Shown here one piece after another: positions 39,832-62,751 of a stretch of DNA of 64,000 nt (position 1 is its first letter; each line of letters starts with the position of its first letter). The notes beneath the pieces were generated by a model that worked only from the letters and a program-made list of their open reading frames with translations, was not told where the DNA came from and did no database searches. Source of the stretch: Rhizophagus irregularis (lineage: Eukaryota > Glomeromycota > Glomeromycetes > Glomerales > Glomeraceae); assembly GCF_026210795.1 (NCBI RefSeq), contig NC_089436.1, forward strand, positions 4,960,001-5,024,000, read 5' to 3'. Both the position numbers and the translations under genes were made by a program.

Positions 39832-41910
39832 CTAAGACTTCTTTTCTGCTTTGTTATAATATTCAAATGATTTAATTACGTTAATTCCAGTTCCTATTCC
39901 ATATCGATAACAACATCCAAGTTTATACATTGAATTAAGATCACCTTTTTCAGCTGCTTTATTATATAATTCAAATGCTTTGATTTCATTTTTTTCAGTT
40001 CCTGTTCCATTCTCATAATAACATCCAAGTTCATACATTGATTCAACATGACCCTTTTCAGCTGCTTCTTTATATGATTCAAATGCTTTGGTTTTATTTT
40101 TTTCAGTTCCTATTCCATTCTCATAACAACATCCAAGTTTATATATTGATTCAATATGACCTTCTTCAGCTGCTTTTTTATATGATTCAAATGCTTTGGT
40201 TTCATTTTTTTCAGTTCCTATTCCATTCTCATAATAACATCCAAGTTTATATATTGATTCAACATGACCTTTTTCAGCTGCTTCTTCATATGATTCAAAT
40301 GCTTTGGTTTCATTTTTTTCAGTTCCTATTCCATTCTCATAATAACATCCAAGTTTAGCATAACAACATCTATAATCATACATTGAGTCAAAAAATCCTC
40401 CTTCAGCTGCTTTTTTATATGATTCAAATGCTTTAATTTTATTTTCTTCAGTTCCTATTCCATTAGCATAATAAAATCCAAGTTTATACATTGATGGTCC
40501 AAAATCAACTTCTTCAGCTGCTTTTTTATATAATTTAAATGCTTTGATTTCATTTTTTTCAGTTCCTGTTCCATTCTCATAATAACATCCAAGTTTATAC
40601 ATTGATTCAATATGACCTCCTACAGCTGCTTCTTCATATGATTTAAATGCTTTAATTTCATTTTTTTCAGTTCCTGTTCCATTCTCATAACAACATCCAA
40701 GTTCATATATTGATTCAACAAAACCCTTTTCAGCTGCTTCTTTATTTAATTCAAATGCTTTGATTTCACTTTTTTCAGTTCCTATTCCATTCTCATAACA
40801 ATGTCTAAGTTCAGTATAACAACATTCAAGTTTATCATAATAATACATTGAATCAATTGAATCAAGATCACCTTTTTCAGCTGCTTCTTTATATAATTCA
40901 AATGCTTTAATTTCATTTTTTTCGGTTCCTATTCCATTTTGATAACAGCATCCAAGTTTATACATTGATTCAACATGATCTTTTTCAGCTGCTTCTTTAT
41001 ATGATTCAAATGCTTTGATTTCATTTTTTTCAGTTCCTATTCCATTAGCATAACAACGTCCAAGTTTAAAAATTGATTTGATATCACCTTTTTCAGCTGC
41101 TTCTTTACAAGATTCAAATATCGTTCTTTTTTTACTTTCACTTTCACATTCAAGATCAATCGTTGTATCAGTATCAATATCACTTCCATCTTCAGTTTTT
41201 ATTTCAAATTGATGACAGTATTCAGGATGATATGTTATATCATTTAAAGATTGTGTTTGACTCATTTGTATTTTTATTTCTTCTCCATTTGGTAGTTTAA
41301 AGGATGGTCGAAGATGGTTAAAAAATTGTATGACAAATGGGTTATCAACAAAAGAAAATTGAATTTTAGCTGAAGATAAAGCTTTGGCTAGTAAAGACTC
41401 AAGGGATTTTTGTTCTTCTTCACTCATATAATCATTAATATTATTAATTTTTATAGTATTTTGTTGTCTAGATTGTTTCAATTTTGATTTTACATTATTC
41501 GGAACTTGTTCACATTTTTCAATATGAGTTTGCATTCGTTGAGGAACAGCTCGTTTAAACTCTTTGGAACAATAGTTACATTGTACACTAGGGTGTGAGT
41601 CCCCATATTTACCGATTATATGAAAATTTTTCCAAACAGATCCTCTTTTTCTTACAATTTCTTCATTTATGTTATCAGTGTAGCCAATTATTGATGTAGA
41701 ATTATTCTGTTGAACAGATTGTGATTTTGCATTATTCGGTGCACTTGGACATTTTTTGTCAAGATGTGCTTGCATTCGTTCAGGAACAGCTCGTTGAAAA
41801 TCTTTTAAACAGTATATACATTGTACATGAGGATGAGAGTCGTCATGTTCACTTATACTGTAAAAATGTTTCCAAACAGGACCTTTTTTTCTCTCTTTTT
41901 TTCTTATCAT
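39832..41910 (-). CDS. BED-BED-hAT-like segment-Sel1 repeat protein, paralogue 1 (692 aa)
   Basis: Single exon. Residues 9-53 and 88-138 are BED-type zinc fingers: KGPVWKHF...VQCIYCLKDFQRAVPERMQA...HLDKKC, then RGSVWKNF...VQCNYCSKEFKRAVPQRMQT...HIEKC. Residues 165-230 resemble the start of a hAT transposase core, with SLLAKALSSAKIQFSFVDNP and NHLRPSFKLPNG. From about residue 262 come 11 Sel1-like repeats of 36 residues (AFxxYKEAAEKG...SMYKLGCCYENGIGTEKNE), two with short inserts. Sel1 repeats form superhelical adaptor surfaces; BED fingers bind DNA and derive mostly from hAT transposases. I infer a transposase-derived DNA-binding adaptor or regulator, probably nuclear. Its start, ATGATAAGAAAAAAAG, aligns with the starts of the two paralogues. 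No lesion seen. Confidence 0.85.
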   Translation of the reverse strand: MIRKKERKKGPVWKHFYSISEHDDSHPHVQCIYCLKDFQRAVPERMQAHLDKKCPSAPNNAKSQSVQQNNSTSIIGYTDNINEEIVRKRGSVWKNFHIIGKYGDSHPSVQCNYCSKEFKRAVPQRMQTHIEKCEQVPNNVKSKLKQSRQQNTIKINNINDYMSEEEQKSLESLLAKALSSAKIQFSFVDNPFVIQFFNHLRPSFKLPNGEEIKIQMSQTQSLNDITYHPEYCHQFEIKTEDGSDIDTDTTIDLECESESKKRTIFESCKEAAEKGDIKSIFKLGRCYANGIGTEKNEIKAFESYKEAAEKDHVESMYKLGCCYQNGIGTEKNEIKAFELYKEAAEKGDLDSIDSMYYYDKLECCYTELRHCYENGIGTEKSEIKAFELNKEAAEKGFVESIYELGCCYENGTGTEKNEIKAFKSYEEAAVGGHIESMYKLGCYYENGTGTEKNEIKAFKLYKKAAEEVDFGPSMYKLGFYYANGIGTEENKIKAFESYKKAAEGGFFDSMYDYRCCYAKLGCYYENGIGTEKNETKAFESYEEAAEKGHVESIYKLGCYYENGIGTEKNETKAFESYKKAAEEGHIESIYKLGCCYENGIGTEKNKTKAFESYKEAAEKGHVESMYELGCYYENGTGTEKNEIKAFELYNKAAEKGDLNSMYKLGCCYRYGIGTGINVIKSFEYYNKAEKKS

Positions 41911-42474
41911 TTTGGTAAAAATTTATGTTCTTTATCTTTTTAGTTACGCATACTATTCTCAGGAAAAAATGAAGAGTAATTATTGATTTTAGGAAATAAC
42001 AAAAAAATTGCGAATTGAAAATTAATTAAACAAGTACTAGTGAATAAAAAAATTGCCTATTATATAAAAAAAATGTTCGCTTAGTTTTGTAGATTAATTC
42101 AAAATTAAAAAGAATTGTTTATTTTAGCTAGTTTAATATTGAATAATCTATTAACTTGTTAATTTAACGGTTAATAAATTCTATATTGGTGTTTATTATG
42201 CCCCTATTTTTAAATTAAAAAGAAAATTTTATTAATCATAAGAAATTTTGTTTCCTTTTAAGGTTACACCATTTTTGCTGCGGCACAAATAGTGGTTTAA
42301 CCCCTGATTTTTCCTTTTTTTTTTAACTTTTTATGACTTGTTAATTTAATCACTTTCATAGATTCTATATTGGTGTTTATTATCTCCTATTTTTAAATTA
42401 AAAAGAAAATCTCATTAATCATGAGACATTTTTGTTCCTTTTTAAGGTTACACCATTTTGCTGCGGCATAAATA
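41911..42474 (-). promoter_or_regulatory. Conserved upstream region of Sel1 gene 1
   Basis: On the minus strand about 400 bases align with the upstream region of Sel1 gene 2, for example GCAGCAAAAATGG, AAATTAACAAGTTAAT, ACTAAGCGAA, TATATAATAGG and AATTACTCTTCA. The distal part is tandemly duplicated with a period of 184 (42181 against 42365). This puts two copies of the GCAGCAAAAATGGTGTAACC box at 42251-42286 and 42433-42469. Confidence 0.7.
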
Positions 42475-42479
42475 AAAGT

Positions 42480-44686
42480 TCATGGTTTAACCATTCTTTT
42501 TTTTTTTTTTTAAAAAAAAAAGCTTTTATATTGGAACTATCTCATCAAAAAAAAAAGAAAATATTATATAAAATTTTCGTTATATTTAAAATCCGATATA
42601 ATTTAATGAAGGTAATCTGATCTGTAATTTCTAAAAAACAATAATGGATTTATTTCCTTGTTTGGTCTGATGTAGAAGTAGTCTTAATTCGTCCATTAAG
42701 TCGGATCATACTTTTTGCTTTGACGTGAGTTTTTTGTGTTTTACATTATTCTTGTTAGTTCTCTATTCAAGGTGTCATCATCCATTACTTTGTCAATATC
42801 TTTTCTTTCTTTGACGTGTTGACAACATGATTATCATGTGATCCTTTCCAGTTTCAGCTCTAACTTTACTTTTACTCTAACTCAGTACAGTAAAATAATC
42901 CTATTAACAAGTACTTTCCAAGATATCTTTGTTCCTAGAAGCCTGTCTGACAATCCTGACAAATCATAATCAAATCCTGACACTCACGAGTCATGAATAC
43001 AACAACTTTAAAAAAAATGATTTATTAAATTTTAATCAGTAAAAATTACAATATAGAAAATTATTTTTTCTAGCTAACAACATTAATAATAATTCATTAA
43101 ATTTTGCGTATTATTTCAAATTAAATATTAATGAAATATTAATTTTTAAAATAAAAACATTAATTTTTGCGAAATATTTTAAATATTAATAAAAATATTT
43201 AATTGTTACTTAATTTTTGAGACGTGTTAATAAAAAAAATTTATTAATTTTTATAATAAAAGCATTAATTATTATAAACCATTTCACATTATTTACATAT
43301 TAATAAAAATCTTGGTTGTTACAGAGTATTACAAAATGATAATAAGTGTCAGAATAATGAGTGTTTCAATTATTAGTTCTTCAATGTTACGCTCACTTGA
43401 AGAATTTACAGTTGAAATCAGCTTACTTTATAATGGTCACTACTCACTAGTATAAATTGTGTTAGAATTTTTAGAATTCTGATTATTTAATGACGAATTA
43501 ACATTAAGTCTATAATGAGTTAAAATCATAATTATGTAGTATATGTTTGTAATTAAAAATAATTTAAATAAGGAACTTCATATTAATTGTTTCTTTCGGC
43601 TATATATGGTGGTGAATTTAACCTATGGTAATTCGGCAATACATCATGAATGCAAATATATTAGATCTGATCTATAATAAAAATAAAAAACAAAAAAAAA
43701 GAAGAAAATAACGAAAAATTCAATAAAATTAGCAATTGAGCAGAAAATGATGTCGATAATAGATCTATAAGTTCGATATGGCACGGATTTATGAAAACTA
43801 GTTATTAGATAGAGATTAGATTACATAGTTTAATAAAATTTTAGTTTATAGTTTTTTTTAGATAGATTGGGTTATAGGGCTATCGATAATTTTTTATTGA
43901 TACCTCTAAGTATTTTGTACAATTATGTAATTAATAAAATGCGTTTAATACTAATTTTTTTTCTAAAAAAAAAAATAGATCTGATCTAAAAATAAAATAG
44001 CCCGAATGATACCTATGATAATATGAAAATTTTATAATTTTGACAATAATTCAATTTCGGCAATTCAATATTACGGTGGTGCAATTCATTTCATTCATTT
44101 CTAATGGTGTACAGTAGTTTAGTGACATGTCGAAATTTTGAACTATACAAGTTTCTAAATTTGGAATTGTGCAACGTCGATCTATACTAATAAGGATAAA
44201 AGGTGACCGGTTCGATCACGTGACTTATAAATTTGTCACCTCCCCAGTTTTCAGTTTATTTCCGGTACATGAAATTTTATTTGTTACGTCCTCATTTGTC
44301 GTGTAAGTAATGTAAAATCACGTGATCTAACACGACCCCATAAAAGGAAATTTTAAAAAGGAAATTTCAAAAATTCAAAAATTCAAAATTCAAAGTTTCC
44401 AATTTTGTCACTTTTAGTCCCACCATACATTTCGACAATATTTAAATTCGGCATTACGGCAGGGTAATTCATCGGCAATTCAGCATTACAGTGGTGTGTG
44501 GTATAATATACAGTATTACACCGCCGTAATATTCCGGCAGCATTCTCATGTATAGTCGTATCAGTTAAAGTATTTTAATGTTAGTTTTTATAGAATGCTC
44601 TTCAAAGCAATTCTTTTTTTTTATGATCTTCGTTATGCTTAAACCAGTCATAAAGTTCAAACATCTTTCATTGCAAAATAGCAGAT
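42480..44686. other. Intergenic between Sel1 gene 1 and the micro-exon region
   Basis: No gene supported. The stretch 43600-44545 repeats AATTCGGCAAT and TTACGGTGGTG words in both orientations, suggesting an old miniature element whose ends I could not fix. Confidence 0.4.
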
Positions 44687-45114
44687 CACTGGTCGAAGTA
44701 GGGGGATGTGCAATACATTTACACTAGAGAAATTTTATATACACGTCACATTTCAAATTGATTTACCAGTAATTTCAATTAATTCCAATTAAAGTGTATA
44801 TTAAGGAAATTTGTTGTAAACTTGTCCAATTTCCATGAAGTGTATATGTCATTTGAAATTTACAAGTTTCTATTATATAAATGTATTTTAAATTGTGATA
44901 AAACCTTCTTTATATATCATTTAAACTTATAATACATTAAACAGAAATTTTTTATGATATAAGAAATGTTAATGAAATTTCGCTCATATTTGCAAATATA
45001 TAGCTAAAATATTAACAATAAATACAATAAATTATTATAAATTTTATATAAATTTTATGTATATTATAATGAAACTTCACTTCTATTTAAGAATCATAAA
45101 CTTCGTAGCCACGC

Positions 45115-46329
45115 TCAATTAAGGCAATGTATTACTAGACCTACACTAAAGATGACTTTAGCAAGGCTTTCTTTGTGAATTAAAAGAAATTTCATACACT
45201 TTGCCAGCTGGTGAGAAAGCCTATGATCTCTAACCTCAAACTTCTTTTCTACAAGATCCCTAAACATTTGATTCAGAGACCTAGACCATCTAAAAAAGAG
45301 AAAATTGAAATGTTAGTAAAAACATTTCATTGAAATGCATAATTAGAAACAAATCTCACCAAGTTTTCACGTGTTTAAAAAGTCAAAAAACCAACCATCT
45401 GAAAAAAGAAAGATGATGAATATTAGTGATCATTCTTTGTTAAAAGAAAAATTAAAGAAAAAAATTGAACTTACGAAATCCATGTTCAAAAATATCTCTG
45501 GATACCAAAGAGCAAGTCATCTATAAAAGAAAAAAAAGTTAGTAATCATTTTTTAATGTCAAAGAAAAAAAATATCTTACCGAAATCAGCCTCCAAAGAG
45601 CTGAAGACTTATCCAAATAAGAACGAAAATGAAGTTGTTAGGTTAATATTATATTAAAAAAAAAAGTTTAAGAATATAAAAAAAAAGTACACCATAACCT
45701 ACGTGTCTAAAGATCCTAATGAAGCCGTCTAAAAAACTGAATTCATTAAAAATAATTTAAAAATCACTTTCCCTTTTTTTAAATTAAAAAAAAGAACTTT
45801 AAAAAAAGAATTATCAGAAGTCCATGTGTCAAAAAAATCCACGTTAAAATGAGAGAAAAAACTTCATCTTCCATTAACAAAATTCTGCTTCAAAGATCCA
45901 AAGTACCATAAGGCTAAAAAATAAAAAAAGAAAAATTTCATTAATAAAATTCTTTTAAAATAGGTTTCTTAAAGTCAATTCTGAATTCAAATAGCTTACC
46001 AAAGTCTGGAAATACAGAACCTATAAAGATTAAAAAAAGAAGCGTCAGACATTTCTTACAGATAAATGACGAATTCCTCTCAAAAGAAATAACTCACTAT
46101 CCAAAAGTCTTCCACAGACAAGTCATTACCTACAAAAAAATAAAAAAAAGGAAATTTAGTATGTTCCTCATAATTAATGGCGAAATTCTTTTCCCAAAAA
46201 TTTTACTTACTGTCCAAAAAGTCCCTCCAGAGAACATTACCTACCAAAAAAAAAGAAGGAACATTTAATACATTTTTTATAGAAACTTTTTCCCCAATAA
46301 TCACCAATCGTCTGAAGATTCTCTGTTAC
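45115..46329 (-). CDS. Micro-exon gene, at least 10 exon cassettes, unknown product
   Basis: Cassettes bounded by AG and GT on the minus strand are 46329-46305, 46240-46211, 46129-46098, 46020-46000, 45913-45879, 45728-45703, 45607-45581, 45520-45475, 45398-45371 and the terminal 45289-45115. Internal ones are only 21-46 nt; introns are about 60-95, one of 150. The last six join into a single open frame ending SLNQMFRDLVEKKFEVRDHR, then LSHQLAKCMKFLL..., stop. The cassettes look related: CTTTGGATCTTTGA, CTTTGGAGGCTGATTT, CTCTGGAGGGACTTTTTGGA and CTGTGGAAGACTTTTGGA suggest repeated duplication of one small exon. The upstream four do not all join in the same frame, and the true start (a candidate ATG at 46711) is unresolved. 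No domain is recognised. Confidence 0.5.
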
Positions 46330-47127
46330 CTTTAAAAAATTAAAAAGAAAATTTTAATACATTTCTAATACTAATAATGAACTATTAAAACAAAACTAAC
46401 TTGCCATTTATTTTAATTTCCAGTTCTTGTTTTATTGTAAAGTATAATTTTTACTTTTGTTTTCTTCAAGTCCAGCTATCATAGGCTTGGAAAAAATTTT
46501 ATGAAAAATAATAAGAAAAAAAAAGAAAATTATAGTAAATAACGATAAAACAAAAAAAAATTCAAAAAATTGATAAAAATAAAAAGAAATCACCTAAGAG
46601 AGCACTATTTGCGAAAATGTTCAGTTGAACTTCAACTTTGAGCCATTGGAATTATTTGTTCATTTCCTTTAATTTTTGTCAGTTGTTCATACCAATAGCT
46701 CATTGATGTCATTGTTGTGAAAAAAAATTAATGAAGGAGAAAGAGGGAAAGGAATTATGGGAAAGAACAAACTTTTTTTTTAAAGAAAGATTATCCGTCA
46801 TTGAACTGCGCCTATCAGTTATTATATCATGTGATACACATGACAAAATAGGACCCGATTCCATTTTGAGGATTGATATAACATATTAAACTATTTTAAC
46901 TATTTTAACTATTTTTAATCACGAATAAACTATTTTTTAATTTTCTTTACATTTTCTTTTATACTCTTCAAAATAATAAACTGCAATTATGGTTTTTGAT
47001 GCTTGGAATATGTTCAACTTAACCATCACAAAATGACACAAATAGCAAATACAATAATATAACATTAATTATTATTTCTCACAAACATTCTAGATTTTTT
47101 AATATAAATTGACTTGAGATTATTAGA

Positions 47128-47272
47128 GGTCATAAGCTTTCTCACCAGCTGGCAAAGTGTATGAAATTTCTTTTAATTTCACAAAGAAAGCCTTGCTAAA
47201 GTCATCTTTAGCATAGGTCTAGTAATACATTGCCTTAATTGAGCGTGGCTACGAAGTTTATGATTATCTCTT
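47128..47272 (+). pseudogene. Inverted duplicate of the micro-exon gene's last exon
   Basis: CTTTCTCACCAGCTGGCAAA and the following ~120 bases repeat the terminal exon (45115-45236) on the opposite strand. One extra T in AATTTCACAAAG shifts the frame, so this copy is not coding. Confidence 0.8.
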
Positions 47273-48107: not shown

Positions 48108-48526
48108 TATCGCAGCAAAAATGGCGCAACCTTAGAAAGGAAATACACAACTTTTATTACATTATATCGCAGCAAAAAATGGCGCAACCTTAGAAAGGAA
48201 ACAATAAATTTTATTAACCAAATTAAAGTGGTTAAATTAACAAGTTAATTAACAGATTAGCCTATTATAGCCTATTCTAGCCAAAATAGATATGAACAAA
48301 GCGTTTAATATTGTGTAACGTTAAATTAATTCACGACTAAGCGAATATTATTTATATAATAGGCCAATTTTTCATTCACTTTGCCATATAGTCACTTGAT
48401 AAAATCATTTTTAATTAATTTTCAACTCGTCATTTTTTTATTTTCTAAATTCAACAATTACTCTTCACTTTTTTTCCTGGGGACAATATACGCAACTAAA
48501 AGGATAAAGAAAAAAATATTTACCAA
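48108..48526 (+). promoter_or_regulatory. Conserved upstream region of Sel1 gene 2
   Basis: Two tandem copies of CGCAGCAAAAATGGCGCAACC (48111 and 48168, period 57), then GTTAAATTAACAAGTTAATT, then AACAGATTAG at 48231-48260. A long block near-identical to the upstream of Sel1 gene 1 follows. The GTTAATTAAC core is the same site that forms the palindrome before gene 3. Confidence 0.7.
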
Positions 48527-50770
48527 ATGACAAGAAAAGAGAGAAAAAAAGGGCCTGTTTGGAAGCATTTTAATAGTATAGATAATAATTCTCATCCTCG
48601 TGTACAATGTATATACTGTTCAAAAGAATTTAAACGAGCCATTCCTGAACGAATGCAAGCACATCTTGACAAAAAATGTCCAAATGCACCTAATAATGCA
48701 AAATCACAATCTGATCAACAGAATAATTCTACATCAATAATTGACTATACTGATAACATGGGTGGAGGAATTGTAGGAAAAAGGGGACCTGTTTGGGAAA
48801 ATTTTCATATAATCGGTAAATATGAGGATTCGCATCCTAGTATACAATGTAAATATTGTTCCAAAGAATTTAAACGAGCTGTCCCTCAACGAATGCAAAC
48901 TCATATTGAAAAATGTGAACATGCTCCGAATAATATAAAATCAAAATTGGAACAATCTAGACAACAAAATACTATAAAAATTAACAACATAAATGATTAT
49001 ATGAGTGAAGAAGAACAAAAATCCCTTGTGTCTTTACTAGCCAAAGCTTTATCTTCAGCTGAAATTCACTTTTCTTTTATTGATAACCCATTTGTCATTC
49101 AATTTTTTAACCATCTTCGACCATCCTTTAAATTACCAAATGGAGAAGAAATAAAAATACAAATGAGTCAATCACAAAATTTAAATGATATAACATATAA
49201 TCCTGAATACTGTAATCATCAACTTGAAATAAAAACTGAAGACAAAGATGATATCAATTCAATGAATGATCTTGAATATTATGATTATGGAATGGGGAAC
49301 GAAATTGCAACATTTGAATTATTATATAAAGAAGCAGCTGAAAAAGGTGATCTTAATTCTATGTATAAACTTGAATGTTGTTATGAAGATGAAATTGGAA
49401 TTGAAAAAAATGAAATTAAAGCACTTGAATTATATAAAGAAGCAGCTGAAAAATGCCATAATAGCTCAATTTATAATCTTGCATTTTGTTGTTATAAAGA
49501 TGGAATGGAAACTGAAAAAAATGAATTCAAAGCATTTGAATCATTATATAAGGAAGTAACTGAAAAAGGTGATCTTGATTCGATGTATAAACTTGGATGT
49601 TGTTATAAAGATGGAATAGGAATTGAAAAAAATGAAATCAAAGCATTTGAAATATATAAGGAAGCAGCTGAAGAAGGGCATATTAACTCAATTTATAATC
49701 TTGCAATTTGTTATAAAAATGGAATAGGAACTATAAAAAATGAAATCAAAGCATTTGAATTATATAAAGAAGCAGCTGAAAAAGGCCACACCGGTTCAAT
49801 TTTTAATCTTGGATGTTGTTATCTATATGGCATAGGAACTGAAAAAAATGGAATTAAAGCATTTGAATTAAATAAAGAAGCAGCTGAAAAAGGTTATATT
49901 AAATCAATGTGTAATCTTGGATATTGTTATAAACAAGGAATAGGAACTGAAAAAAATGGAATCAAAGCATTTGAATCATATAAAGTAGCAGCTGAAGAAG
50001 GTCACCTTAACTCTATTTATAATCTTGCAATTTGTTATAATGAAGGAACAGGCACTGAAAAAAATGAAATCAAAGCATTTGAATTATATAAAGAAGCAGC
50101 TGAAAGAGGTCACATTAACTCAATTTATAATCTTGCAATTTGTTATAATGAAGGAACAGGCACTGAAAAAAGTAAAACCAAGGCATTTGAATTATATAAA
50201 GAAGCAGCTGAAAGGGGTGATATTGATTCAATATATGAACTTGGAATTTGTTATAAATATGGAATAGGAACTGAAAAAAATGAAATCAAAGCATTTGAAT
50301 CATATAGAGAAGCAGCTGAAAAAGGTCATATTGACTCAGTTTTTAATCTTGCAATTTGTTACTTACAAGGAATAGGAACTGAAAAAAATGAAATCAAAGC
50401 ATTTGAATCATATAGAGAAGCAGCTGAAAAAGGTCATATTGACTCAGTTTTTAATCTTGCAATTTGTTACTTACAAGGAATAGGAACTGAAAAAAATGAA
50501 ATCAATGCATTTGAATTATATAAAAAAGCAGCTGAAAAAGGTGATCTTGACTCAATGTATAATCTTGGATATTGTTATGTTTTTGGAATAGGAACTGAAA
50601 AAAATGAAATTAAAACATTTGAATTATATAAAGAAGCAGCCGAAAAAGGCCATATTGAATCAATATATAGTCTTGGAATTTGTTATCGATATGGAATAGG
50701 AACTGAAACAAATGTACTTAAATCATTTGAATATTATAACAAAGCAGCAGAGAAATCTAAGATTATATGA
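48527..50770 (+). CDS. BED-BED-hAT-like segment-Sel1 repeat protein, paralogue 2 (747 aa)
   Basis: Single exon, head-to-head with paralogue 1 about 6.6 kb away. The BED fingers (VQCIYCSKEFKRAIPERMQA and IQCKYCSKEFKRAVPQRMQT) and the hAT-like segment (FIDNPFVIQFFNHLRPSFKL) are closely conserved. Thirteen Sel1 repeats follow from about residue 262 to the C terminus (KAAEKSKII). Two adjacent repeats (DNA from about 50285 and 50393) are identical over a full 108-bp unit, a recent in-frame duplication. The repeats carry fewer inserts than in paralogue 1. Role inferred as for paralogue 1. No lesion seen; upstream sequence is conserved with paralogue 1, arguing that both are expressed genes. Confidence 0.85.
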   Translation: MTRKERKKGPVWKHFNSIDNNSHPRVQCIYCSKEFKRAIPERMQAHLDKKCPNAPNNAKSQSDQQNNSTSIIDYTDNMGGGIVGKRGPVWENFHIIGKYEDSHPSIQCKYCSKEFKRAVPQRMQTHIEKCEHAPNNIKSKLEQSRQQNTIKINNINDYMSEEEQKSLVSLLAKALSSAEIHFSFIDNPFVIQFFNHLRPSFKLPNGEEIKIQMSQSQNLNDITYNPEYCNHQLEIKTEDKDDINSMNDLEYYDYGMGNEIATFELLYKEAAEKGDLNSMYKLECCYEDEIGIEKNEIKALELYKEAAEKCHNSSIYNLAFCCYKDGMETEKNEFKAFESLYKEVTEKGDLDSMYKLGCCYKDGIGIEKNEIKAFEIYKEAAEEGHINSIYNLAICYKNGIGTIKNEIKAFELYKEAAEKGHTGSIFNLGCCYLYGIGTEKNGIKAFELNKEAAEKGYIKSMCNLGYCYKQGIGTEKNGIKAFESYKVAAEEGHLNSIYNLAICYNEGTGTEKNEIKAFELYKEAAERGHINSIYNLAICYNEGTGTEKSKTKAFELYKEAAERGDIDSIYELGICYKYGIGTEKNEIKAFESYREAAEKGHIDSVFNLAICYLQGIGTEKNEIKAFESYREAAEKGHIDSVFNLAICYLQGIGTEKNEINAFELYKKAAEKGDLDSMYNLGYCYVFGIGTEKNEIKTFELYKEAAEKGHIESIYSLGICYRYGIGTETNVLKSFEYYNKAAEKSKII
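50284..50499 (+). repeat. Perfect 108-bp tandem duplication inside Sel1 gene 2
   Basis: GCATTTGAATCATATAGAGA starts at 50291 and again at 50399. The intervening unit encodes one 36-residue Sel1 repeat and appears identical at the base level, with divergence only after ATGAAATCAAtG. Confidence 0.9.
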
Positions 50771-53700
50771 ATAGGAACTGAAATAAATGAAGCTTATACT
50801 ATAAGTTTGAAATAGAGAGCATAGCTGGGTTTTTACTAAACGGTTTAACATTATCCGGAACATTAAGTTATATTAAATACAGCTCAAACCGATTAATCAG
50901 CTATAATTATTGGATTCTAAATTTAAAATATAAATCTGATATTCAAAACTAGTTTAATCTCTAATTTAGAATAAAAACTGGGAGAATAAATAATATATAT
51001 TATCGATATATATTACTATTTATAAGCAGACAGAACCAAAATGTACTGGACCGGGCCGGTACGTGGTAAAATAAAAAGTAGTTAATAATGTTATTTAATA
51101 AATTTTGTTAAATTGCAGCATAGACTACAGAATACAGAATTGTAATGAAATAATGGAATACAGTAGAACTTTTAAATATAAATCCTTGTGATGGAAACAT
51201 TGTAAAACGCAATTTTAGAAAAATGATATGTGATTAGATATTTTTTTTATTTGTTTTCCTCTTCATTTAATGCTTAATGTAATATTTTTTTTTGCATTAT
51301 AATTAATAAAACAAAATTATAACGTTTAAACACAACATACGTTTTTTAAAAAATATAAATCATTAACGTATTAGGTTTTGTGTAAAGTACTAATAAAATG
51401 CAGTTTTTGAAAATTTTTTATTACAAACAAGATAAAACATAAGAAAAAGTGGATTTCAGCAATAAAATCGCAATTAACATTTCATAAAAGTCATACATTG
51501 ATAAAAAAATTTTTTTTTTTAAAAAAATTATATTTCATATTATGATAATTCGGGCTGGCGTTATCACAATGCATTGAGTCGGCCCAAATTATCATAAGTT
51601 CTGGCCAACATATTTTGTTTCAAGTTTGGCCCGATCATATGCAATTTCAAAATGCTTATAACCTTTTACATAGATCTTCTTTTAAAAATCTGACCAGTAA
51701 TTTGATAGAGCTTACCTCAAAGAATAAAGTACCATTATTTTTTCTAAATTGTATTTTTTTTAAGGAGTTGAAAGATTTTTAGGTGCTACATTTTTATTGT
51801 CGAGTATAGACTTCCGGCACCATATACGGGGTACTGCTGTGGCTCGCAAAATATGGTATTTTATTATTTATAAACTGATTGCAACAGGTAACCCTGAACA
51901 AAGCTTGCCACAATGCCACTTCTAGCTACGTGGTGTTCAGGAAAACAGTTGTAGGTTAACTCTTTCTGGCTGAGAGCAAGCATTCATAGATTTCAAACCG
52001 ATACTAATTTATTTAATTCATCATAATAGAAAAGAGATAGTTACGAAAGTGTTTAAGAAATTGATTTAATACATTAACTATTATTATTACTAAAGTTTTT
52101 TTTTTTTTTTTTTTTTGAAGCTTATAATGAAAATTTTACACGAAAATTAGAATTATACAGATACGTGATCGTGATCATAGTACTGAAATCTACTTCTAAT
52201 GCAGTTTCCGATGGCTAACGAAATTCACTCTAGCCGAAGTTCTTTATATTACACATTATATAATCGAGCAAGGGCTTGAGAATGCCTAATAGTTCTAGCT
52301 TTAATAAGAGAGAGATAAATTAATTGATTTTATTGATGATTTGTCTGTATATCATATTTGATATATAATAAGATATAGTAAGCATATGTAATATATAATT
52401 TTAACCGTAGATTTATGTACAGTAACTTAAATATAAACAATAATTGTTTTAATAAAATTTTCTTTCCATTTATAATGTTTTGTAATATTTGATATAATTT
52501 TGACCTTTAAGATTTCATCAATTAACTGTCGTATGACATTTTATATGAAAAATCGAAAAGTAATCAAAACTTATAAATAAATATATACGTGAGTATCAGT
52601 ATATACTGTATATAAAAAAAGATCGAACTTAGCCCAAATATTCGTAGTAATTATACATGAGTACGGTATTTGTTTATATGAAATTTGTATTTTCCGTGTT
52701 GACGTGTTCATAACAATACATTGCGGCGGATTTATGAAATTTGGCAAAAACCCTGCTGCGCCTCGGGAATTAAAATTGACTTATAGAAACATTAAGCTTT
52801 TTTCCTAAAAATGTCAAATAATGACGCACCTTTAACACTGGAAAAATTGGTTGGGCGCAAGATTTGGGGTATTTGGGCACAAAAAATTTTTTAGAGCTCA
52901 TTTTTTTACTGTTCACTAATAAATTTGGGACTTAAATAGAAATTTGGTGACTAAAAGACTGTCAAATATTTATTTTGACATGACGGACAAATTTTGAGGT
53001 ATTTCATAAATTCGTCATGATGATTAACTACTATGTGAAAAAACGAATAGTATTATTTATTAATATAATACATTGGACAATAGAAAATTTTTCTATATAA
53101 TTCATTTTAGTAACAAATAGGAATTTTATTAGGCGCAGTATGTTCATGGTTATACAGTAAATCGTTCGAAGTCTATAATTATCAATTATTACATTCCACA
53201 AATCACGAATTTTGAAAATTTTGTAATTATTTTAATCAGATATTTAATCCAGACTTCTAAATTCTAACCCTGTATTCTGGTATTTCTGGTATTATTATTT
53301 TCAGATCGAATAAAACGAAATGAAACTTGCTTTAAGCCATTTTTTAAGCATAAATATAAAATTAAAATTCAATTAATTACAAAAATATTGTATTTTAAAG
53401 ACGATTTAAAAAATAACAAGTATACGCAAAAAAATTTTTTTTTTTTGTATGGTGTTAATAGCACATCTGTTCCTAAAGATTCACAATCTATTTCGATGAT
53501 GTAATTATAAATTTTTATATGTACATTCATGAATCTGCTGAAATTATTTGAATTGGACCGGACCTTCCCATCGACCATTGGCATCGCTTAAGTTAGACCA
53601 TCGGCCCATCAACCAGTGTTGTTTTTGATTTGTGCAACAACGGATTCACCGTATAAGATATCACCCAATTGATACTAGTACTGTATAATGTCATGCATTG

Positions 53701-53815: not shown

Positions 53816-53819
53816 ATCT

Positions 53820-55730: not shown

Positions 55731-55734
55731 TATT

Positions 55735-56568
55735 TTTTTTTTTTTATGTATTTCGATTTGTTTTACATAATTTTTTTTTTTACCAGTTTTTTTTCTTCAT
55801 TTTATTGTGATATTTTTATATTATTTATTTATTTATTCAATAGTATTCATATCGTTATAGAAAATAAAGTATTTTTTAATTTGGATTTCATGCGGAAATT
55901 TTATTGAATAATTTTAATGTCACGTGATTCGTATGATCAAATGAGTCACACGATCATTCGGTTCATTCAATTATTCGAGTTAAGCTCAAGACGAGTTCGG
56001 GCTATTTCCAATTGGTTATATAAATTATAAGTACTCGGACCATTGGACGTGACTCGACGTAAGGAGTACCGAGGGTTATTTCATACATGGCATTAAGTAA
56101 TGACATTATTTAATTTGATTCCAATATATTTATTAATTGTAAAAGTTTAGAAGAAGGATATCGTAAAGTTTAAAAATCAAGATTAATATGAATTATAAAT
56201 TAAATAAATTTCAATTATCGATTTTGATGCGTTTTCCTATTTTAATTAAAAAAGTTATTTATGATAAAATAAGCAATTTAATAAATAATACAAGTTCACT
56301 TACCAATATTTTGAGTTTCAATTTTTAATTCTTCAATGTTACGCTTCCTTGAGGAATTTACAGTTGAGATCGGTTTGCTAATTAATAGTTTACTAGTAGT
56401 ATAAATTGCGTTTGAATGTTGATTATTCAATTGAATGTTTGATGAAGATAACCTAAATTATTTTTGATAATTTTACATTACCTTTGTGTAGTATTTATAT
56501 CAAAATCATTTTCTTTTGTAATATATTCTAAAATAAAGTATTATATTATGGACTGCCATCGAAAATAA
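55735..56568. other. Intergenic, convergent 3' ends
   Basis: Lies between the 3' ends of the five-exon gene and the minus-strand kinase. AATAAAGT-type polyadenylation words occur at 55861. The stretch 56330-56450 resembles 43370-43500 (TTCTTCAATGTTACGCT, GAGGAATTTACAGTTGA, AGTATAAATTG), a dispersed repeat in direct orientation. Confidence 0.5.
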
Positions 56569-58580
56569 TTAAATAAAAATGGGTTGATTCTTTAAGTAAT
56601 ACAACGTAATAGTACCTTGTTTCATATTGCGTATTATTGTGGATGAATTTATAGTTAAAGATTTAGATATCAAAGAACTTAATGCTCTACTTGTAAAAAT
56701 CGCTTTTGGGTGAGATTTTTGACTAAATTCGGGACCAAGTTTCTTTGATTGTATTAATTCTAATCTTTTTTTTTCAGCCTGTACAAACATTTCCGTAAAT
56801 TTATTAAACTGAAATGGAAATTCTTTAGTAAAATTATAACATTCACCAATAGTAACCCGAAATTCATAAATAGTAGGTCTTTTTGAAGGAACAGAATTCC
56901 AACATTGTTTCATTAAATTAGCAAACCATTCAGGAGTATCATTTGTAATTTCAGGTCGTTTTCCATCAATAATTTCATAAATAAGATTAATGTTATGTTC
57001 AACATCAGCAAAAGGTTTACAACCCGTTGTAAGTTCCCACATAATCATACCCAAACTGTATATATCAGATTCTTTTGAAAATTTACCCCCTTTAAATATT
57101 TCTGGTGCAATATAAGGTATTACTCCATATATTTCATTATTTAATGATGTATTTTCTGCAGGTTGTGATAATCCTAAGTCCCCAATTTTCCAATCCTGTC
57201 CTATGGACAATAATATATTTCCACTATGAAAATCTCGATGTATAAAATTATTTTCATGAATAGCTTTAAGTCTATAGTAGGAAATGGTAATTAACGAACT
57301 ATAAACATAAATAAGTAATAATAAATTAATATTGAAAACATAAATACCCATTTGAAATATCCCATAAAATAACTACTTTGTTGTGCCATGTAATATTAAC
57401 GAAGTTTTTTTGCAAATAGTCATGTAAATTTCCACCATTTGCATATGTCATTATTATCATATAATCTTCTGTTACAGGATCTTGTGTAATGCCACGACAA
57501 TCAATAACGAAAAAGTTTGAAGTATGGTAAAGTGATTTTAACTAAATATGGATAAAATAATTAGAAACATTAAATCAAGTCAAATCAGTCTACATTACAT
57601 TTATTTACCTCATTTAAAAAATATTTACTAATATTCTGTGAATTGGAAAATCTTTTTACAGCAACGGGTTCATTATTCCATATTGCTTTATAAACAGTAC
57701 CAAATCCTCCTTCTGCTATTTTTTCTAAATTTTTAATTTGAGAATATGGAACCCATCTCACCCTTTCTTTTCTAATAAATTCATAAATATTTAAAGGATA
57801 AGAAATTTTACTAGACTTATCAAAATAATTAAAAAATACATTAGTGTTTTCATTGATATTTGTAATATCAATAGTAATAAATGATATTCTTTTACATTTC
57901 CTACATTGAGATTGATCTATATTTGTAAAAATGAGATTTGTAGTTAAACAATATCTACATCCATTATAAGTTATATGACAATATAAACAAATTTTTTGAC
58001 AATCTGTTAAATATTTTAATTCTTGACAACAAATTCTACAGTTATCATAACTATCCCACCATGGTAAATGAATAATCGAAATATTCAAAAAATTCTGGGA
58101 TGATTTGATAATCGAATTTGATTCTACCAGTTCATAAGAAAATAGATAACAATCTGGACATATATAGTTTAATATTGAATTTTTCTGTTTAATCAATTTT
58201 CCACATAAGTTACAATTTGTTTTTCTATTAATATTGAATAATAAATCATTTGGAACTATTTGTCTAAAATACAAAACTTCAGAGCAATATTTACACCATT
58301 CTTGAATGTTTTTTGTACTAATTACATCATGTTTAATACATTTATTAGTTTTATTTGTATTTATACATACATCCAAGTCTATATTATTACATTTAATATA
58401 TCGAAGAAAACAATTTTTACAATATTTTTGTTTGAATTCAAGCGTCACGGAATATTTATTTTTACAATAATTACATTTTTCTTCGTTATTCTTAAGAGGA
58501 ATAAAAATTGCAGGTACAGGGCTAGATTTTAATCTTGGTGTTGGATCAAATAAGTCATTATTTATATTTATAAGTTTCAT
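56569..58580 (-). CDS. Protein kinase with N-terminal cysteine-rich zinc-ribbon-like region (622 aa)
   Basis: Three exons, 58580-57609, 57541-57348 and 57271-56569, are joined in frame by GTAAAT...TTTAG and GTATTT...TATAG introns. Residues 35-235 hold about ten CxxC pairs (CNYC, CKNC, CNLC, CPDC, CRICC, CRYC, CRKC), a likely zinc-binding array. The kinase domain starts with GGFG at 291-294 and has the lysine of VAVKRF at 309, HRDFHSGN at 400-407, DLG in place of DFG at 420-422, and APE at 444-446. It ends with WNSVPSKRPTIYEF. This matches the tyrosine-kinase-like (TKL) kinases massively expanded in Rhizophagus, which phosphorylate Ser/Thr (rarely Tyr) and are thought to act in signalling. All catalytic residues are present, so it is probably active. 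Substrate unknown. Confidence 0.9.
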
Positions 58581-58584
58581 ATTT

Positions 58585-60640
58585 TTTTATTTTTTAAGGT
58601 CGAAATTTTGATAATATGAAATCATGTAACGGTATATTTATAATTTGTTACTTCGAATAAAAAGAAATTCCGTGGAACTTTTTGATGAAAACTAGAAGTT
58701 TAGAAAATTCTCAAAGAATTTGATTGATAATGTGACACGAAATATTATGAAAGAATAAAGGAAATTTGTAACAAATTTAGAACTTTCTTATAGAAAATCA
58801 TTGTAATTACTTGTAACAAAGTTTTTATTTGGTAAGATCCCATCCAAAAATAATTTTGTAAAATATCTCATTGACTTTTTTGGCAAAAAGATCGGCACGT
58901 GCTAAAAGAATAATGTAAAGATTTCCTTTTCAGATAATTCCAGGTAGAAGCTATTACCTTTTTTGGATATTGACCAAAATTATCATAATACCGGCCCTGA
59001 AAAAAATGCGTACCAGCTATATATTTCGGATCCATACAATTTTTTTTGAATTTTAGGATTATCAATTAAATAAAAATAAAAATAAACAAACAGTATTATT
59101 AATTCATTAATCATATGTCGAAACATTTAACTGATAAATCTAATTAATTATTTCTGTATCAAATACATTAAAGAATACATGTAGATTTCCAATTCAATCT
59201 CTATTATGTAGTATTGTCAGTTAATACTCTATCAGGTTTAATTTACATTTTCTATTACTAGGAAATGGAAACCGTTGTAGATCACAATTGCGCTTCGCTC
59301 TGGACAATTAAAAGGGCATTATCATCATCATCATTACTCCAGAATCGTTTATTATAATTTTTTGTATTTTTTAACCCTTTTAATTCTTAATGCTGATATG
59401 TATAATTTCTAATTTCAAATCTCCTGAGCAAAATTGAATTGTCAAAGATTGGCCTTTAAATACGTAAAGAAAATGAAATATTTTTACCTCTAAATAATAT
59501 GAATCATCATCGAAGTTTTAACTTAATTCATAGATTTTGTTTCCACGTTGATTGTTTCAATAAATAATAGTTATTACAAAATCATTTAATCGACTCCTGA
59601 TGCTCCTGATTAATAATTATTGCATACAAGCTATTTTATATATCTATAAATTACGCCCTTAATAAACGACAGATTTTTTATTGTAATATCTGTAATACTA
59701 TATGTCATCTAACAATGTTAGAAGTTATGCATGTTATTCTTAATACTTACAGTATATTATATTCTTAATCCTAACTTTATTTTACATTTAATAAATGGAT
59801 CATTTAAATTTTTCGATAATGCCTTGACACATTTGTATTTAATTTTGAATAATCAGAATTTTCATTAGTACTGAAATATAGTAATACATAACATAATAGA
59901 TAAGACCATGCTTGATATACCAATTCCAAATATGAATTATGGTGCTCTTTATTAATTGTTTAGAAAAAATCTTGTTAACATTTTATGGGTTAGAGTTTTA
60001 TTATTTAAACTTTTTTTTTTTATGAAAAAATTTAAATAAATCAATGTAACGGTAATCGAAAAATGTAAAATTTATGATATTTATGATATAATTAAACAAC
60101 AAAACATAATTTGGTGCATCTTTATCAACGAAACTTATTTTTTATTTATTCATTTTATTTTTATTATTATTATTTTTGTTATTACAATTTTACATAAAAA
60201 ATACATTAAATGCTCAAAGAAATTTACGTTAATCAATATGTGGCGCAGATAAATTAAAATTTTGTGACGCAGCGAAATTTCGGACGGAATTAATTAATTT
60301 ATTGATTGCTTTTTTTGGAGGTTAAATTGCTATTTTATTTATTATATGATGTCCGCATTATTTATGAATTGGATATATGGTATACTGTGCTTGTTTAAAC
60401 CGAAGGTACCGAAAGTAACAAAATCTTGAAAATTGAAGGAAATTTTCAAAAATGGGATCGTAGCTCAAGTGGAACACCATGCTGGATAGACATTAAACGG
60501 CTTTATAAAAATAATTTAGATCGCCAAAAAATACTATCACTTTCAGAGATAAATTTAAATGTTAAATGTTGATTGATTTTTTTTTTTTTAGAAATAATTG
60601 ATAAAGTATTTATATAGACACGTGTATTAATTTATTTAGC
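58585..60640. other. Intergenic, nothing firm
   Basis: No gene supported. TAATACCGGCCCTG at 58980-58995 looks like a hAT-type terminus (CAGGGCCGG on the minus strand); a similar GCCGGCCCTG occurs at 63295. At 60452-60490 a tRNA-like 5' half (GATCGTAGCTCAAGTGG) lacks a 3' half. Confidence 0.4.
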
Positions 60641-60645
60641 TATAA

Positions 60646-60943
60646 GGCCACAAATTCAATTTTTCGGTTCACGTAACATTGAAATTTAAAATTGACCCGG
60701 GAACCCGGGGTTTATTGTTTATTAATAAAAAAAGTTTATCATATATAAAATCGTGACATCTGATTGGTTGACTTTTAAAGGGGAGAGTAATTAAAAGAAT
60801 TTATTTTAACCACGTGATAAACTTACTCCGCCAATAAAATTACGTATTGATCACGTGATAAACTTTTTATATATAAACTTTTTTTTATTGAAATTTGAAA
60901 AAGTGACCCGGCCGTGAAGTGAACCGAAAAATTGTGTGGCCTA
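60646..60943. mobile_element. MITE-like inverted-repeat element, about 300 bp
   Basis: Begins AGGCCACAAATTCAATTTTT then CGGTTCAC. The end on the minus strand begins AGGCCACACAATTTTTCGG then TTCAC. The interior has inverted and direct copies of CACGTGATAAACTTT (near 60820 and 60850) and GTTTATCATATATAAAA (60735), so the whole can fold. No clear target duplication. Confidence 0.6.
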
Positions 60944-61287
60944 AAGTTGATTTTAAATTATTATTTATACACTAAAATTTTATTTATAAAAAATTGCATT
61001 CAAGGTTTTGGTTAAAAATATTTAAAAGAAAAATAATTTTATAAAAAAGAATCAAAAATAGTAGATAATTGTAAAATACAGTAAATAGACTTTATTAAAA
61101 TAAACGATAAATAATAAAAAAGTGTAAATATTTTGCTTCTTTATAATAAGTGTATTTAGTTAACAAGAGTAGATATTATTGAAGCACATGGATAAAGTAT
61201 AAGACAATTGAAATTTCACTAAATAAATCTTGATTATATAATTTCTTTGATTCCTTTATCTCAGTTCAATAATGTAATCCAAAATTA

Positions 61288-62751
61288 TCATTGAATCAAT
61301 GACATTCTTTCTGCTGCTTTATTATAATATTCAAATGATTTAATTACATTTATTTCAATTCCTACACCATATCGATAACAATATCCAAGTTGATACATTG
61401 AATCAAGATCACCTTTTTCAGCTGCTTCTTTATATAATTCAAATGCTTTGATTTCATTTTTTTCAGTTCCTGTCCCATCCTCATAACAAATTCCAAGATT
61501 AAAAGTTGAATCAATATCACCTTTTTCAGCTGCTTCTTTATATAATTCAAATGCTTTGATTTCATTTTTTTCAGTTCCTATTCCATCTTGATAACAGCAT
61601 CCAAGATTAAAAATTGAGCTAATGTGGCCTTTTTCAGCTGCTTCTTTATATAATTCAAATGCTTTGATTTCATCTTTTTCAGTTCCTGTCCCATCCTCAT
61701 AACAAATTCCAAGATTAAAAATTGAATCAATATCACCTTTTTCAGCTGCTTCTTTATATAATTCAAATGCTTTGATTTCATTTTTTCTGGTTCCTATTTC
61801 TTGTGAATAACAGTACTCAAGATTATATAATGAATCAAGATCACCATTTTCAGCTACTTCTTTGTATAGTTCAAATGCTCTATTTTCATTTCTTTCAATT
61901 CCTATTCCTTGTGAATAACAATATCCAAAATTATACATTGAACTAATATCATCCTTATCAGCTGCTTCTTTATATAATTCAAATGTTGCAATTTCATGCC
62001 CTACTCCATAATCATAATATTCAACATTATTCATTGAATTAATATCACCTTTGTCTTCAGTTCCTATTTCAAGTTGGTGATAGTATTCAGGATGATATGT
62101 AATATCATTTAAAGGTTTTGATTGATTCAATTGTATTTTTATTTCTTCTCCATTTGGTATCTTAAATGATGGCTGAAGGTGATTAAAAAATTCAATAACA
62201 GATGGATTATCAACAAAAGAAAAGTGAATTTCAGCTGCTTTGACTAGTAAAGATTCAAGAAATTTTTGCTCTTCTTCACTCATACAATCATTAATTTCAT
62301 TAATTTTTATAGTATTTTGTTGTCTAGATTGTTTCAATTTTGATTTTACGTTATTCGGAGCTTGTTCACATTTTTCAATATGGATTTGCATTCGTTGAGG
62401 AACAGCTCGTTTAAATTCTTTAAAACAGTATTTACATTGTACATTAGGGTGTGAGTCTTCACGTTTACCAATTATAGAAAAATCTTTCCAAACAGGTCCC
62501 TTTTTTCTTACAACTTCTTCAGCGTAGTCAATTATTGATGTAGTATTACTCTGTTGACTAGATTGTGATTTTGCATTAGTAGGTGCTTTTGGACATTTAT
62601 TATCAAGATGCGCTTGCATTCGTTCAGGAACGGCTCGTTGAAAATCTTTTAAACAGTATATACATTGTACAGGAAGATGAGTAGCATCATTTTTATTTAT
62701 ACTATTAAAATGCTTCCAGACGGGTCCCTTTTTTCTCTCTATTCTTGTCAT
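61288..62751 (-). CDS. BED-BED-hAT-like segment-Sel1 repeat protein, paralogue 3 (487 aa)
   Basis: Single exon. Both BED fingers are intact (VQCIYCLKDFQRAVPERMQA and VQCKYCFKEFKRAVPQRMQI). The hAT-like segment is shortened slightly (SLLVKAAEIHFSFVDNP, where paralogue 1 has an extra LSSA). Only six Sel1 repeats follow, the last two-thirds of them near-identical to each other, and the C terminus is YYNKAAERMSLIQ. The shared C-terminal cap (SFEYYNKAxEK) shows that repeat number changed internally while both ends were kept. Function inferred as for the other paralogues. The spacing between the three genes and their mixed strands suggest separate segmental duplications, not a tandem array. Confidence 0.85.
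   Translation of the reverse strand: MTRIERKKGPVWKHFNSINKNDATHLPVQCIYCLKDFQRAVPERMQAHLDNKCPKAPTNAKSQSSQQSNTTSIIDYAEEVVRKKGPVWKDFSIIGKREDSHPNVQCKYCFKEFKRAVPQRMQIHIEKCEQAPNNVKSKLKQSRQQNTIKINEINDCMSEEEQKFLESLLVKAAEIHFSFVDNPSVIEFFNHLQPSFKIPNGEEIKIQLNQSKPLNDITYHPEYYHQLEIGTEDKGDINSMNNVEYYDYGVGHEIATFELYKEAADKDDISSMYNFGYCYSQGIGIERNENRAFELYKEVAENGDLDSLYNLEYCYSQEIGTRKNEIKAFELYKEAAEKGDIDSIFNLGICYEDGTGTEKDEIKAFELYKEAAEKGHISSIFNLGCCYQDGIGTEKNEIKAFELYKEAAEKGDIDSTFNLGICYEDGTGTEKNEIKAFELYKEAAEKGDLDSMYQLGYCYRYGVGIEINVIKSFEYYNKAAERMSLIQ

Follow-up and report, generated by a model that had tools for sequence, protein, structure and literature searches.

What are three intronless genes that join pieces of a transposase to an array of protein-docking repeats doing in the genome of Rhizophagus irregularis? 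This question is raised by a stretch of 64,000 bases (bases 4,960,001 to 5,024,000 of contig C8, NC_089436.1, in a genome of 146.7 Mb and 32 contigs), analyzed at its full length and referred to below as the window. The genes, here termed W1, W2, and W3, encode two BED fingers, a linker related to hAT transposases, and an array of Sel1 repeats, which are protein-docking solenoids. We consider it reasonably probable that they represent a domesticated hAT DNA-binding module placed on a Sel1 scaffold, predicted to bind the palindrome GTTAATTAAC and to regulate the family to which they belong.

Each gene consists of one unbroken open reading frame from ATG to stop, in which the two fingers, the hAT-derived segment, and the Sel1 array follow one another. 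W1 (positions 39832 to 41910 of the window, minus strand) encodes 692 amino acids, W2 (48527 to 50770, plus strand) 747, and W3 (61288 to 62751, minus strand) 487. All domain assignments exceeded the Pfam cut-off, with two zf-BED stretches per gene (E values of 2.5e-7, 1.5e-8, and 2.1e-6 for W1, W2, and W3, respectively) and Sel1 arrays of 11, 13, and 6 stretches (3.4e-97, 8.9e-112, and 8.1e-63). In W1, finger 1 occupies residues 11 to 55 (41746 to 41880) and finger 2 approximately residues 89 to 136 (41503 to 41646), both with the CCHC pattern; the corresponding positions are residues 10 to 52 (48554 to 48682) and about 86 to 136 (48782 to 48934, CCHC) in W2, and residues 10 to 54 (62590 to 62724) and about 84 to 134 (62350 to 62502, CCHC) in W3. 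The linker, delimited by genome search and alignment and reading SEEEQ...FKLPN in W1, spans residues 162 to 208 of W1 (41287 to 41427), 159 to 205 of W2 (49001 to 49141), and 157 to 200 of W3 (62152 to 62283), and the arrays, whose limits from Pfam and repeat comparison are approximate, extend over 39841 to 41109, 49313 to 50755, and 61300 to 62004, all on the strand of the respective gene. The words VDNPFVIQFF and RPSFKLPNG are located between the second finger and the array in all three genes, with the variants VDNPSVIEFF and QPSFKIPNG in W3. Over its N-terminal 255 residues, W2 is 83% identical to W1 and 79% identical to W3. The domain order given by an earlier sequence-only reading of this DNA is confirmed by these frames, and the possibility it had raised, that the fusion is an annotation artefact of two adjacent genes, is argued against by a single open frame of which 21 were found genome-wide.

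The BED and linker portion is, by homology, derived from a hAT transposase of the same genome. A genome search with residues 1 to 255 of W2, in which 149 of 256 candidates were scored, gave at least 146 matches. The BED part (residues 6 to 65) was about 50% identical to frames of a repeated hAT element, and the linker part (residues 143 to 212 or 145 to 212) matched the same hAT frames at 51 to 52% identity in at least 26 places, with an E value of about 2e-13. The match between linker and hAT, on which the sequence-only reading had staked its hypothesis, is thus present; the profile search it had suggested succeeded for zf-BED and failed for the linker, which has no Pfam match in W1 to W3 and was connected to hAT through the frames of the same genome. 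A profile of BED and linker found no meaningful match in PDB, and homology between the linker and Hermes was not found by sequence. Residues 1 to 255 of the W2 type had no match in phages or viral contigs, and none of the 17 stretches that matched their pattern in prokaryote genomes was confirmed.

The protein of the repeated element hAT-a, read from copy L012, features zf-BED, DUF659 from residue 157 onwards, and Dimer_Tnp_hAT according to Pfam, and its C-terminal part, and only this part, matched Hermes structures in a PDB search. Five copies were fetched (L011 to L015, located on C13, C1, C16, C6, and C7, respectively). Because the other four are 98.9 to 99.9% identical to L012 over 2.4 kb, and several copies have long open transposase frames, hAT-a appears to have been active recently. 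The four copies compared with L012 end in TAGGGATGG/CCAACCCTA with 8-bp repeated flanks, as read by eye. Two further groups, hAT-b (L031 and L032) and hAT-c (L033 to L035 and L037), are about 79% alike; the left end of hAT-a is also found in five hAT-b and hAT-c copies, and the matching right end in L035. In the alignment, the fusion proteins track the hATs through FVDNPLVIQFFxxLRPSFKLPN and then part from them. Since the point of divergence, FKLPN, lies directly ahead of the DUF659 start, the captured segment is the pre-catalytic part and not the catalytic core; what had been read as the start of a hAT core is therefore hAT-derived but ends just before that core begins. Pfam detected neither DUF659 nor the hAT C-terminal dimerization region in W1 to W3, and neither was detected in seven further BED-Sel1 members that were scanned. 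The host-transposase fusion postulated from the sequence is upheld by these results, with BED and linker homologous to a hAT of the same genome, the catalytic part absent, and Sel1 repeats following in frame.

Comparison of the hAT ends with the family loci yielded the palindrome GTTAATTAAC. In hAT-a copy L012, four sites are at the left end and three at the right; the palindrome is also present at both ends of hAT-c copy L035 and at the left end of hAT-b copy L031, whose right end is outside the fetched stretch. Exactly three copies are found in the 64-kb window, all of them in promoters of the fusion genes: one at 48244 to 48253, 283 bp ahead of the W2 ATG, and two at 62956 to 62965 and 62968 to 62977, 214 and 226 bp ahead of the W3 ATG. 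The 12-bp site spacing of W3 recurs at the right ends of L012 and L035. By analogy, GTTAATTAAC is presumed to be the site of both the hAT transposase and the fusion proteins; a motif that served only as a promoter element would not be expected at both hAT ends.

A family-wide scan covered the upstream regions of 25 BED genes, with at most 600 bp each counted back from the ATG; the set comprised 21 BED-Sel1 genes, the broken gene C15:3933384, and three short genes (14,142 bp in total; nine upstreams were shorter, at 417 to 599 bp, and the broken loci L044, L045, and L056 were left out). This set contained 25 exact sites, distributed over 17 of the 25 genes. Order-1 Markov sequences contained 0.09 sites on average and no more than 2 in 2000 runs; the other 15 palindromes of the form G-8(A/T)-C were present in 0 to 2 of the 25 upstreams, and GTTAATTAAC was the most widespread upstream 10-mer among those with at least two G/C. 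The motif was absent from 15,000 bp downstream of the genes (600 bp per gene), from 36,570 bp of BED-gene frames, and from 38,290 bp of 15 partly overlapping loci with Sel1 repeats but without an intact BED. The sites of the genes range from -346 to -87 relative to the ATG, overlapping with the range of -280 to -126 in three hAT copies with a located ATG. Promoter pairs are otherwise unalike (median identity of 0.69 versus 0.68 after shuffling, 136 pairs), with up to 0.95 identity for close paralogs. As synonymous divergence between the sub-branches compared amounts to 0.55 to 0.97, an unselected 10-mer would seldom be expected to survive intact. In the whole genome, GTTAATTAAC occurs 1059 times (7.2 per Mb) versus 917 times for the reversed control, the density expected from the dinucleotides of the window being 4.9 per Mb; pairs of sites 2 to 12 bp apart number 166 versus 0 for the reversed control. 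Three segments, each about 400 bp long and with paired GTTAATTAAC at both ends (G000:C2:877313-877698, C3:3842340-3842711, and C3:5658325-5658710) resemble short non-autonomous hAT relatives. Another copy, at L063:1753 (G000:C1:5588052), is situated about 100 bp ahead of a short, apparently membrane-spanning frame inside the C1 group of BED-Sel1 genes and may be due to chance.

The persistence of subterminal motif copies upstream, together with the presence of family members on several contigs (C1, C2, C7, C8, C9, C16, C18, C21, and C29), would also fit the capture of Sel1 DNA by a mobile, pack-type hAT derivative, spread by hAT transposase acting in trans. The search for the ends of such an element was negative: a sequence resembling the hAT terminal inverted repeat (TIR) was present in 0 of 25 upstreams when up to one substitution was allowed, and exact TIR words (only the hAT word was sought, in fetched stretches) did not bracket any gene in the window or at 18 loci. 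The window has one lone right-type word at 37948. The left-right pair at L018:4266-4463, with hAT-type end words 190 bp apart, lies 3' of C1:5599551 without bracketing it and is probably a short element of its own. Likewise, GTTAATTAAC is missing from the 600 bp downstream of all 25 genes, the comparison of hAT ends with the family loci gave only short motif matches, and the flanks of W1 and W2 are alike (71 to 73% identity) only over roughly 300 bp on the upstream side and roughly 180 bp on the downstream side, as expected of old gene duplicates. We regard the mobile derivative as largely refuted and give it scarcely any credence.

Selection was assessed as the ratio of nonsynonymous to synonymous change (ω) by the Nei-Gojobori method for paralog pairs of the five two-BED genes, with 1000 codon bootstraps. 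Both fingers and the linker are under purifying selection in these genes, and the spacer between the fingers is not: ω was 0.32 for BED1 (bootstrap 0.16 to 0.62), 0.28 for BED2 (0.14 to 0.50), and 0.29 for the linker (0.15 to 0.48), versus 1.01 for the spacer (0.47 to 2.27). For BED1, BED2, and linker alike, 999 or more of the 1000 replicates gave values below 1, and the spacer value was reached in 0.6 to 1.4% of the replicates for each. For the region ahead of Sel1 in eight one-BED pairs, ω ranged from 0.23 to 0.79, without bootstrap, with some young pairs as high as 0.77 to 0.79. These high values could be taken as a sign that the genes are functionless, neutral debris left behind as genes and repeats were amplified in a genome rich in repeats, as could the existence of at least four broken BED loci (C15:3933384, C1:5368307, C18:2189041, and C5:108293) and of two stops in the Sel1 match of C9:1237044. 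Debris would not be expected to show ω of 0.28 to 0.32 on fingers and linker next to 1.01 on the spacer, nor to keep GTTAATTAAC in 17 of 25 promoters, and this explanation is very improbable.

Within each two-BED gene of the window, BED1 and BED2 are 74 to 78% identical at the DNA level over about 175 bp (78% between 41481 to 41652 and 41718 to 41892 in W1), which identifies the second finger as a duplication within the gene. The five BED2s formed one group (93/88) in a tree of 36 BEDs, and the BED1s of the same genes grouped weakly (47/80); the tree is itself weak, having 53 columns and a bootstrap that had not settled. A single duplication of the BED would give the observed grouping of BED2. 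Next to a shared arginine, BED1 reads PERMQ in all five two-BED genes, and BED2 reads PQRMQ in four and PHRMQ in one; because of this difference, the two fingers may read different half-sites.

The family is considerably larger than the three members amplified within 23 kb that the sequence-only reading had envisaged. At least 21 open frames in the genome combine a BED with two or more family Sel1 repeats, 10 of them on C1 (5.37 to 5.73 Mb), 3 in the window, and 8 on seven other contigs. Two BEDs are present in five frames (W1, W2, W3, C1:5599551, and C29:2351380) and one BED in 16, among which C1:5377501 lacks an ATG ahead of the BED. In addition, three short genes have a BED and no Sel1, two with linker (C1:5578914 and C1:5494989) and one without (C1:5508280). 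Some branches have the complete linker; it is eroded in C9, C18, and the C1:5612 group and absent in C1:5652923. All 25 frames (30 BEDs) have the CCHC pattern, in a set sought with a pattern that itself demands those ligands. The counts are lower bounds. BED and hAT matches below about 40% identity and most other BED matches lie outside the survey of other fusion partners. The frame of 542 amino acids at C7:5063540 (L036) stands apart: its BED groups with those of the hATs (99/93), its repeats have a mean identity of 0.546 to the generic Sel1 type versus 0.479 to the main family, and its upstream is without GTTAATTAAC. Because it differs in BED as well as in repeat type, BED and Sel1 have probably been joined twice, with C7:5063540 as an independent second fusion. 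In the gene C1:5645159 (L021), several near-identical consecutive two-repeat blocks were seen by eye in the Sel1 array, which suggests that array expansion is ongoing there.

As to the source of the array, the nearest relatives of the W2 array outside the BED family include kinase-Sel1 genes. In 6 of the 12 loci fetched, the Sel1 repeats are preceded in one frame by ECWxNNPxxRPDxxQV, which we take to be a typical protein kinase tail; two of these six loci, at C1:5.31-5.36 Mb, adjoin the C1 group of BED-Sel1 genes. No N-terminal domain is recognizable ahead of the near arrays L052 and L053. For each main member, mean repeat identity was 0.55 to 0.70 to the six kinase-Sel1 genes and 0.45 to 0.52 to three generic ones, the main group of 21 in this comparison including the half-BED locus L056 and excluding the C7 fusion. 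One repeat type is thus common to the kinase-Sel1 genes and the main BED-Sel1 family, and the array may have been taken from a kinase-Sel1 gene, as opposed to both having come from a common source. Exon shuffling at an intron is not supported, as the kinase-Sel1 frame that holds the repeats starts before the ECW... tail, well upstream of the first Sel1 repeat.

The kinase-Sel1 genes among the nearest arrays give the impression that N-terminal output domains have been exchanged on one repeat type. Plant BED-NLR receptors follow a comparable logic, and the fusion proteins might be recognition receptors, with the Sel1 array as a variable sensor and the BED as bait or as an output module like the kinase domains of their relatives. 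The repeats within a gene vary most at positions 2, 4, 7, 10, 25, and 32, where nonsynonymous change relative to pooled synonymous change exceeds 1 (overall value 0.61), in a position-wise test that is crude and pooled over 15 genes. The ligand is hypothetical, and a receptor does not predict conservation of a motif in the promoter; we judge this explanation to be quite unlikely.

The chief rival of a self-regulating family is a transposon repressor. Here, the fusion proteins, having kept the DNA-binding half of the hAT, would occupy the subterminal repeats of hAT copies that are still intact, as well as those of short elements sharing these ends, blocking transposition as catalytically dead competitors, and the sites in their own promoters would tune the dose. 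The recent activity of hAT-a fits, as do the four left and three right sites of L012 and the 166 paired motifs compared with none in the reversed control. Repression would, however, be possible with a plain BED-linker protein, of which the short genes C1:5578914 and C1:5494989 are examples, and the long, variable Sel1 arrays are left unexplained. Moreover, the hATs compared are only 43 to 58% identical in the BED-linker region, and several branches of the family have an eroded linker. Repression as the function of these genes is unlikely.

Several observations weigh against domestication as a DNA-binding regulator, the broken loci among them. W1 itself is without GTTAATTAAC; the broken place in its upstream (42146 to 42160, minus strand) that aligns with the W2 and W3 palindrome has suffered a deletion, and in total 8 of the 25 BED genes are without an exact site. 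The 17 motif-bearing genes do not represent 17 independent retentions, because the promoters of paralogs have common descent. Several BED-Sel1 branches with eroded or absent linker retain GTTAATTAAC, so whatever maintains the motif does not require the linker. When the first 50 of the 1059 genomic sites (5.65 Mb of C1) were assigned, 13 were located in BED-gene upstreams and 17 in three clusters of 5 to 7, namely, L012 (hAT-a), another hAT-a frame, and a third taken as hAT-like from its spacing alone; the remaining 20 were in neither, at about chance density, and six loci covering 7 of these 20 had no BED frame among the frames listed. Apart from the BED genes and the hAT-like copies, GTTAATTAAC appears to be at about chance density, so that nothing indicates a wider regulon. 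Among the seven further one- and two-BED members, zf-BED passed the Pfam cut-off in three, remained below it in three, and was missed in one (C1:5652923). AlphaFold prediction for residues 1 to 255 of W2 together with W1 and W3, a check proposed by the sequence-only reading, gave a poor model (mean predicted local distance difference test value of 43.5, predicted template modeling score of 0.31) in which the BED elements are visible and the linker has no confident fold, too poor to judge the linker. Finally, the core bound by the Hermes BED is AAGT, according to the available part of PMC10368747, whereas the candidate site here is the palindrome GTTAATTAAC, though AAGTTAATTAAC was present in 8 of the 25 upstreams. 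The putative regulator role gains strength from the promoter motif and the selection test.

The window has several further features. Between W2 and W3, at 56569 to 58580 (minus strand), there are two frames, of which one has an N-terminal part rich in cysteine together with the beginning of a protein kinase domain and the other the C-terminal part of a kinase; by eye, the two together resemble one intron-containing kinase gene. Long frames at 8390 to 9715 and 15706 to 16755 (both minus strand) resemble transposon-derived proteins, also by eye. A repeat 3' of W2 (50939 to 51366) has a 79% match to L008:1-461, upstream of the BED-Sel1 gene C9:1236696, and parts of 51378 to 51616 match L035:180-367, upstream of a hAT-c copy. 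An endogenous viral region was considered on account of the location on C8; the available text of PMC10640383 reports that region only in strain 4401, and nothing here points to it.

With respect to known systems, KRABINER is a host-transposase fusion gene. The Tc1/mariner-HTH F-box genes are fusions of the same class (PMC12062965, in the part available). In these cases, as in the present one, the DNA-binding part of a transposase is joined to a host domain; the present genes differ in that the transposase is a hAT and not a mariner, the host domain is Sel1 and not KRAB or F-box, and the junction is inside a continuous frame. One uninterrupted frame, found here in 21 cases, and purifying selection, found in the five two-BED genes, are features expected of such fusions. 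Hermes has a BED of the CCHC type, the helix of which recognizes a quasi-palindromic subterminal repeat in AT-rich surroundings, each site being bound by two BEDs (PMC10368747); the likeness includes the succession of a CCHC BED and a pre-catalytic segment and the action of the BED on subterminal repeats, and the difference is that the fusion genes are without catalytic domain, dimerization tail, and TIRs. Closest in kind are the CGGBP-type proteins, described in the accessible portion of PMC8097297 as domesticated hAT DNA-binding proteins with zf-BED and Hermes DNA-binding domain, with R. irregularis among the carriers; there, Yellan et al. state that one resolved R. irregularis protein of this type binds an AT-rich motif. 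Both groups retain a hAT-derived BED and the segment before the catalytic core and have lost the catalytic part. The zf-BED with CCHC or CCHH ligands typical of CGGBP was found by Pfam in W1 to W3 and 3 of 7 others, and CCHC in 25 of 25 frames; a Hermes-type segment is suggested by homology to the same hAT position, with no Pfam or PDB profile match and a poor model, and the predicted sequence-specific binding of DNA has indirect backing from the promoter motif. Unlike CGGBP-type proteins, the fusion genes add long Sel1 arrays (21 frames), the BED is doubled in five and the linker eroded in several, and the presumed site is in their own promoters; no Sel1 partner of CGGBP is mentioned in the accessible portion of PMC8097297.

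Relative to the kinase-Sel1 and other Sel1 genes of R. irregularis, as far as they are covered by the available parts of PMC8647823 and PMC6123716, the repeat type is the same, and BED and linker occupy the N-terminal place of the kinase. Sel1 and BED are separately named there as expanded motifs of the fungus (PMC6123716), and in another study expanded genes such as Sel1 were set aside as possible carriers of partial transposable elements (PMC11075540). A BED-Sel1 fusion or transposon sites retained in promoters were not found in the literature searched, which did not extend to subscription papers, preprints, and supplements; the main text of a fungal co-option screen (PMC10799480) contains no words starting with Sel1, hAT, or Rhizophagus, and that of PMC12062965 does not mention Sel1, zf-BED, or Rhizophagus. 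As kinds, host-transposase fusions and domesticated hAT BED proteins are already known; the joining to Sel1 and the transposon sites kept in promoters appear to be new.

Taken in order, the favored course of events would be as follows. The 5' part of a hAT transposon, comprising a promoter with subterminal-repeat sites, the BED, and the pre-catalytic segment, would have been joined at the DNA level to a Sel1 array of the kinase-gene type. Having lost both the catalytic half and the terminal inverted repeats, the chimera would not be expected to transpose alone; it would have spread by gene duplication, and one branch would have doubled the BED inside the gene. The fingers, one or two per protein, are predicted to bind, alone or together with the linker, to GTTAATTAAC, the former target of the transposase in the hAT ends, and the Sel1 solenoid would recruit a partner protein. 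Since most members have the site in their own promoter, we propose that the family regulates itself and its siblings. In its strongest form, the whole hAT recognition circuit, i.e., the DNA-binding half together with the subterminal sites, would have been domesticated as one piece, with the catalytic half swapped for Sel1, a self- and cross-regulating multigene family of DNA-binding proteins in an arbuscular mycorrhizal fungus as the outcome, and BED and Sel1 fused at least twice; this complete version is plausible but rather falls short of an even chance.

We know of no established role for Sel1-repeat and BED genes of R. irregularis. Two expanded families of this fungus are linked by the finding that, in some Sel1 genes, the DNA-binding module of a transposase takes the place of the kinase of their relatives. 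With GTTAATTAAC, a named 10-bp candidate site is at hand that is directly testable, which makes it possible to test what this gene family does in an obligate symbiont. If true, the proposal would be a clear case of a transposon giving a DNA-binding protein and its own cis-elements together. The presumed site retained ahead of many of these genes suggests that a former transposon part is now a self-regulating gene switch.

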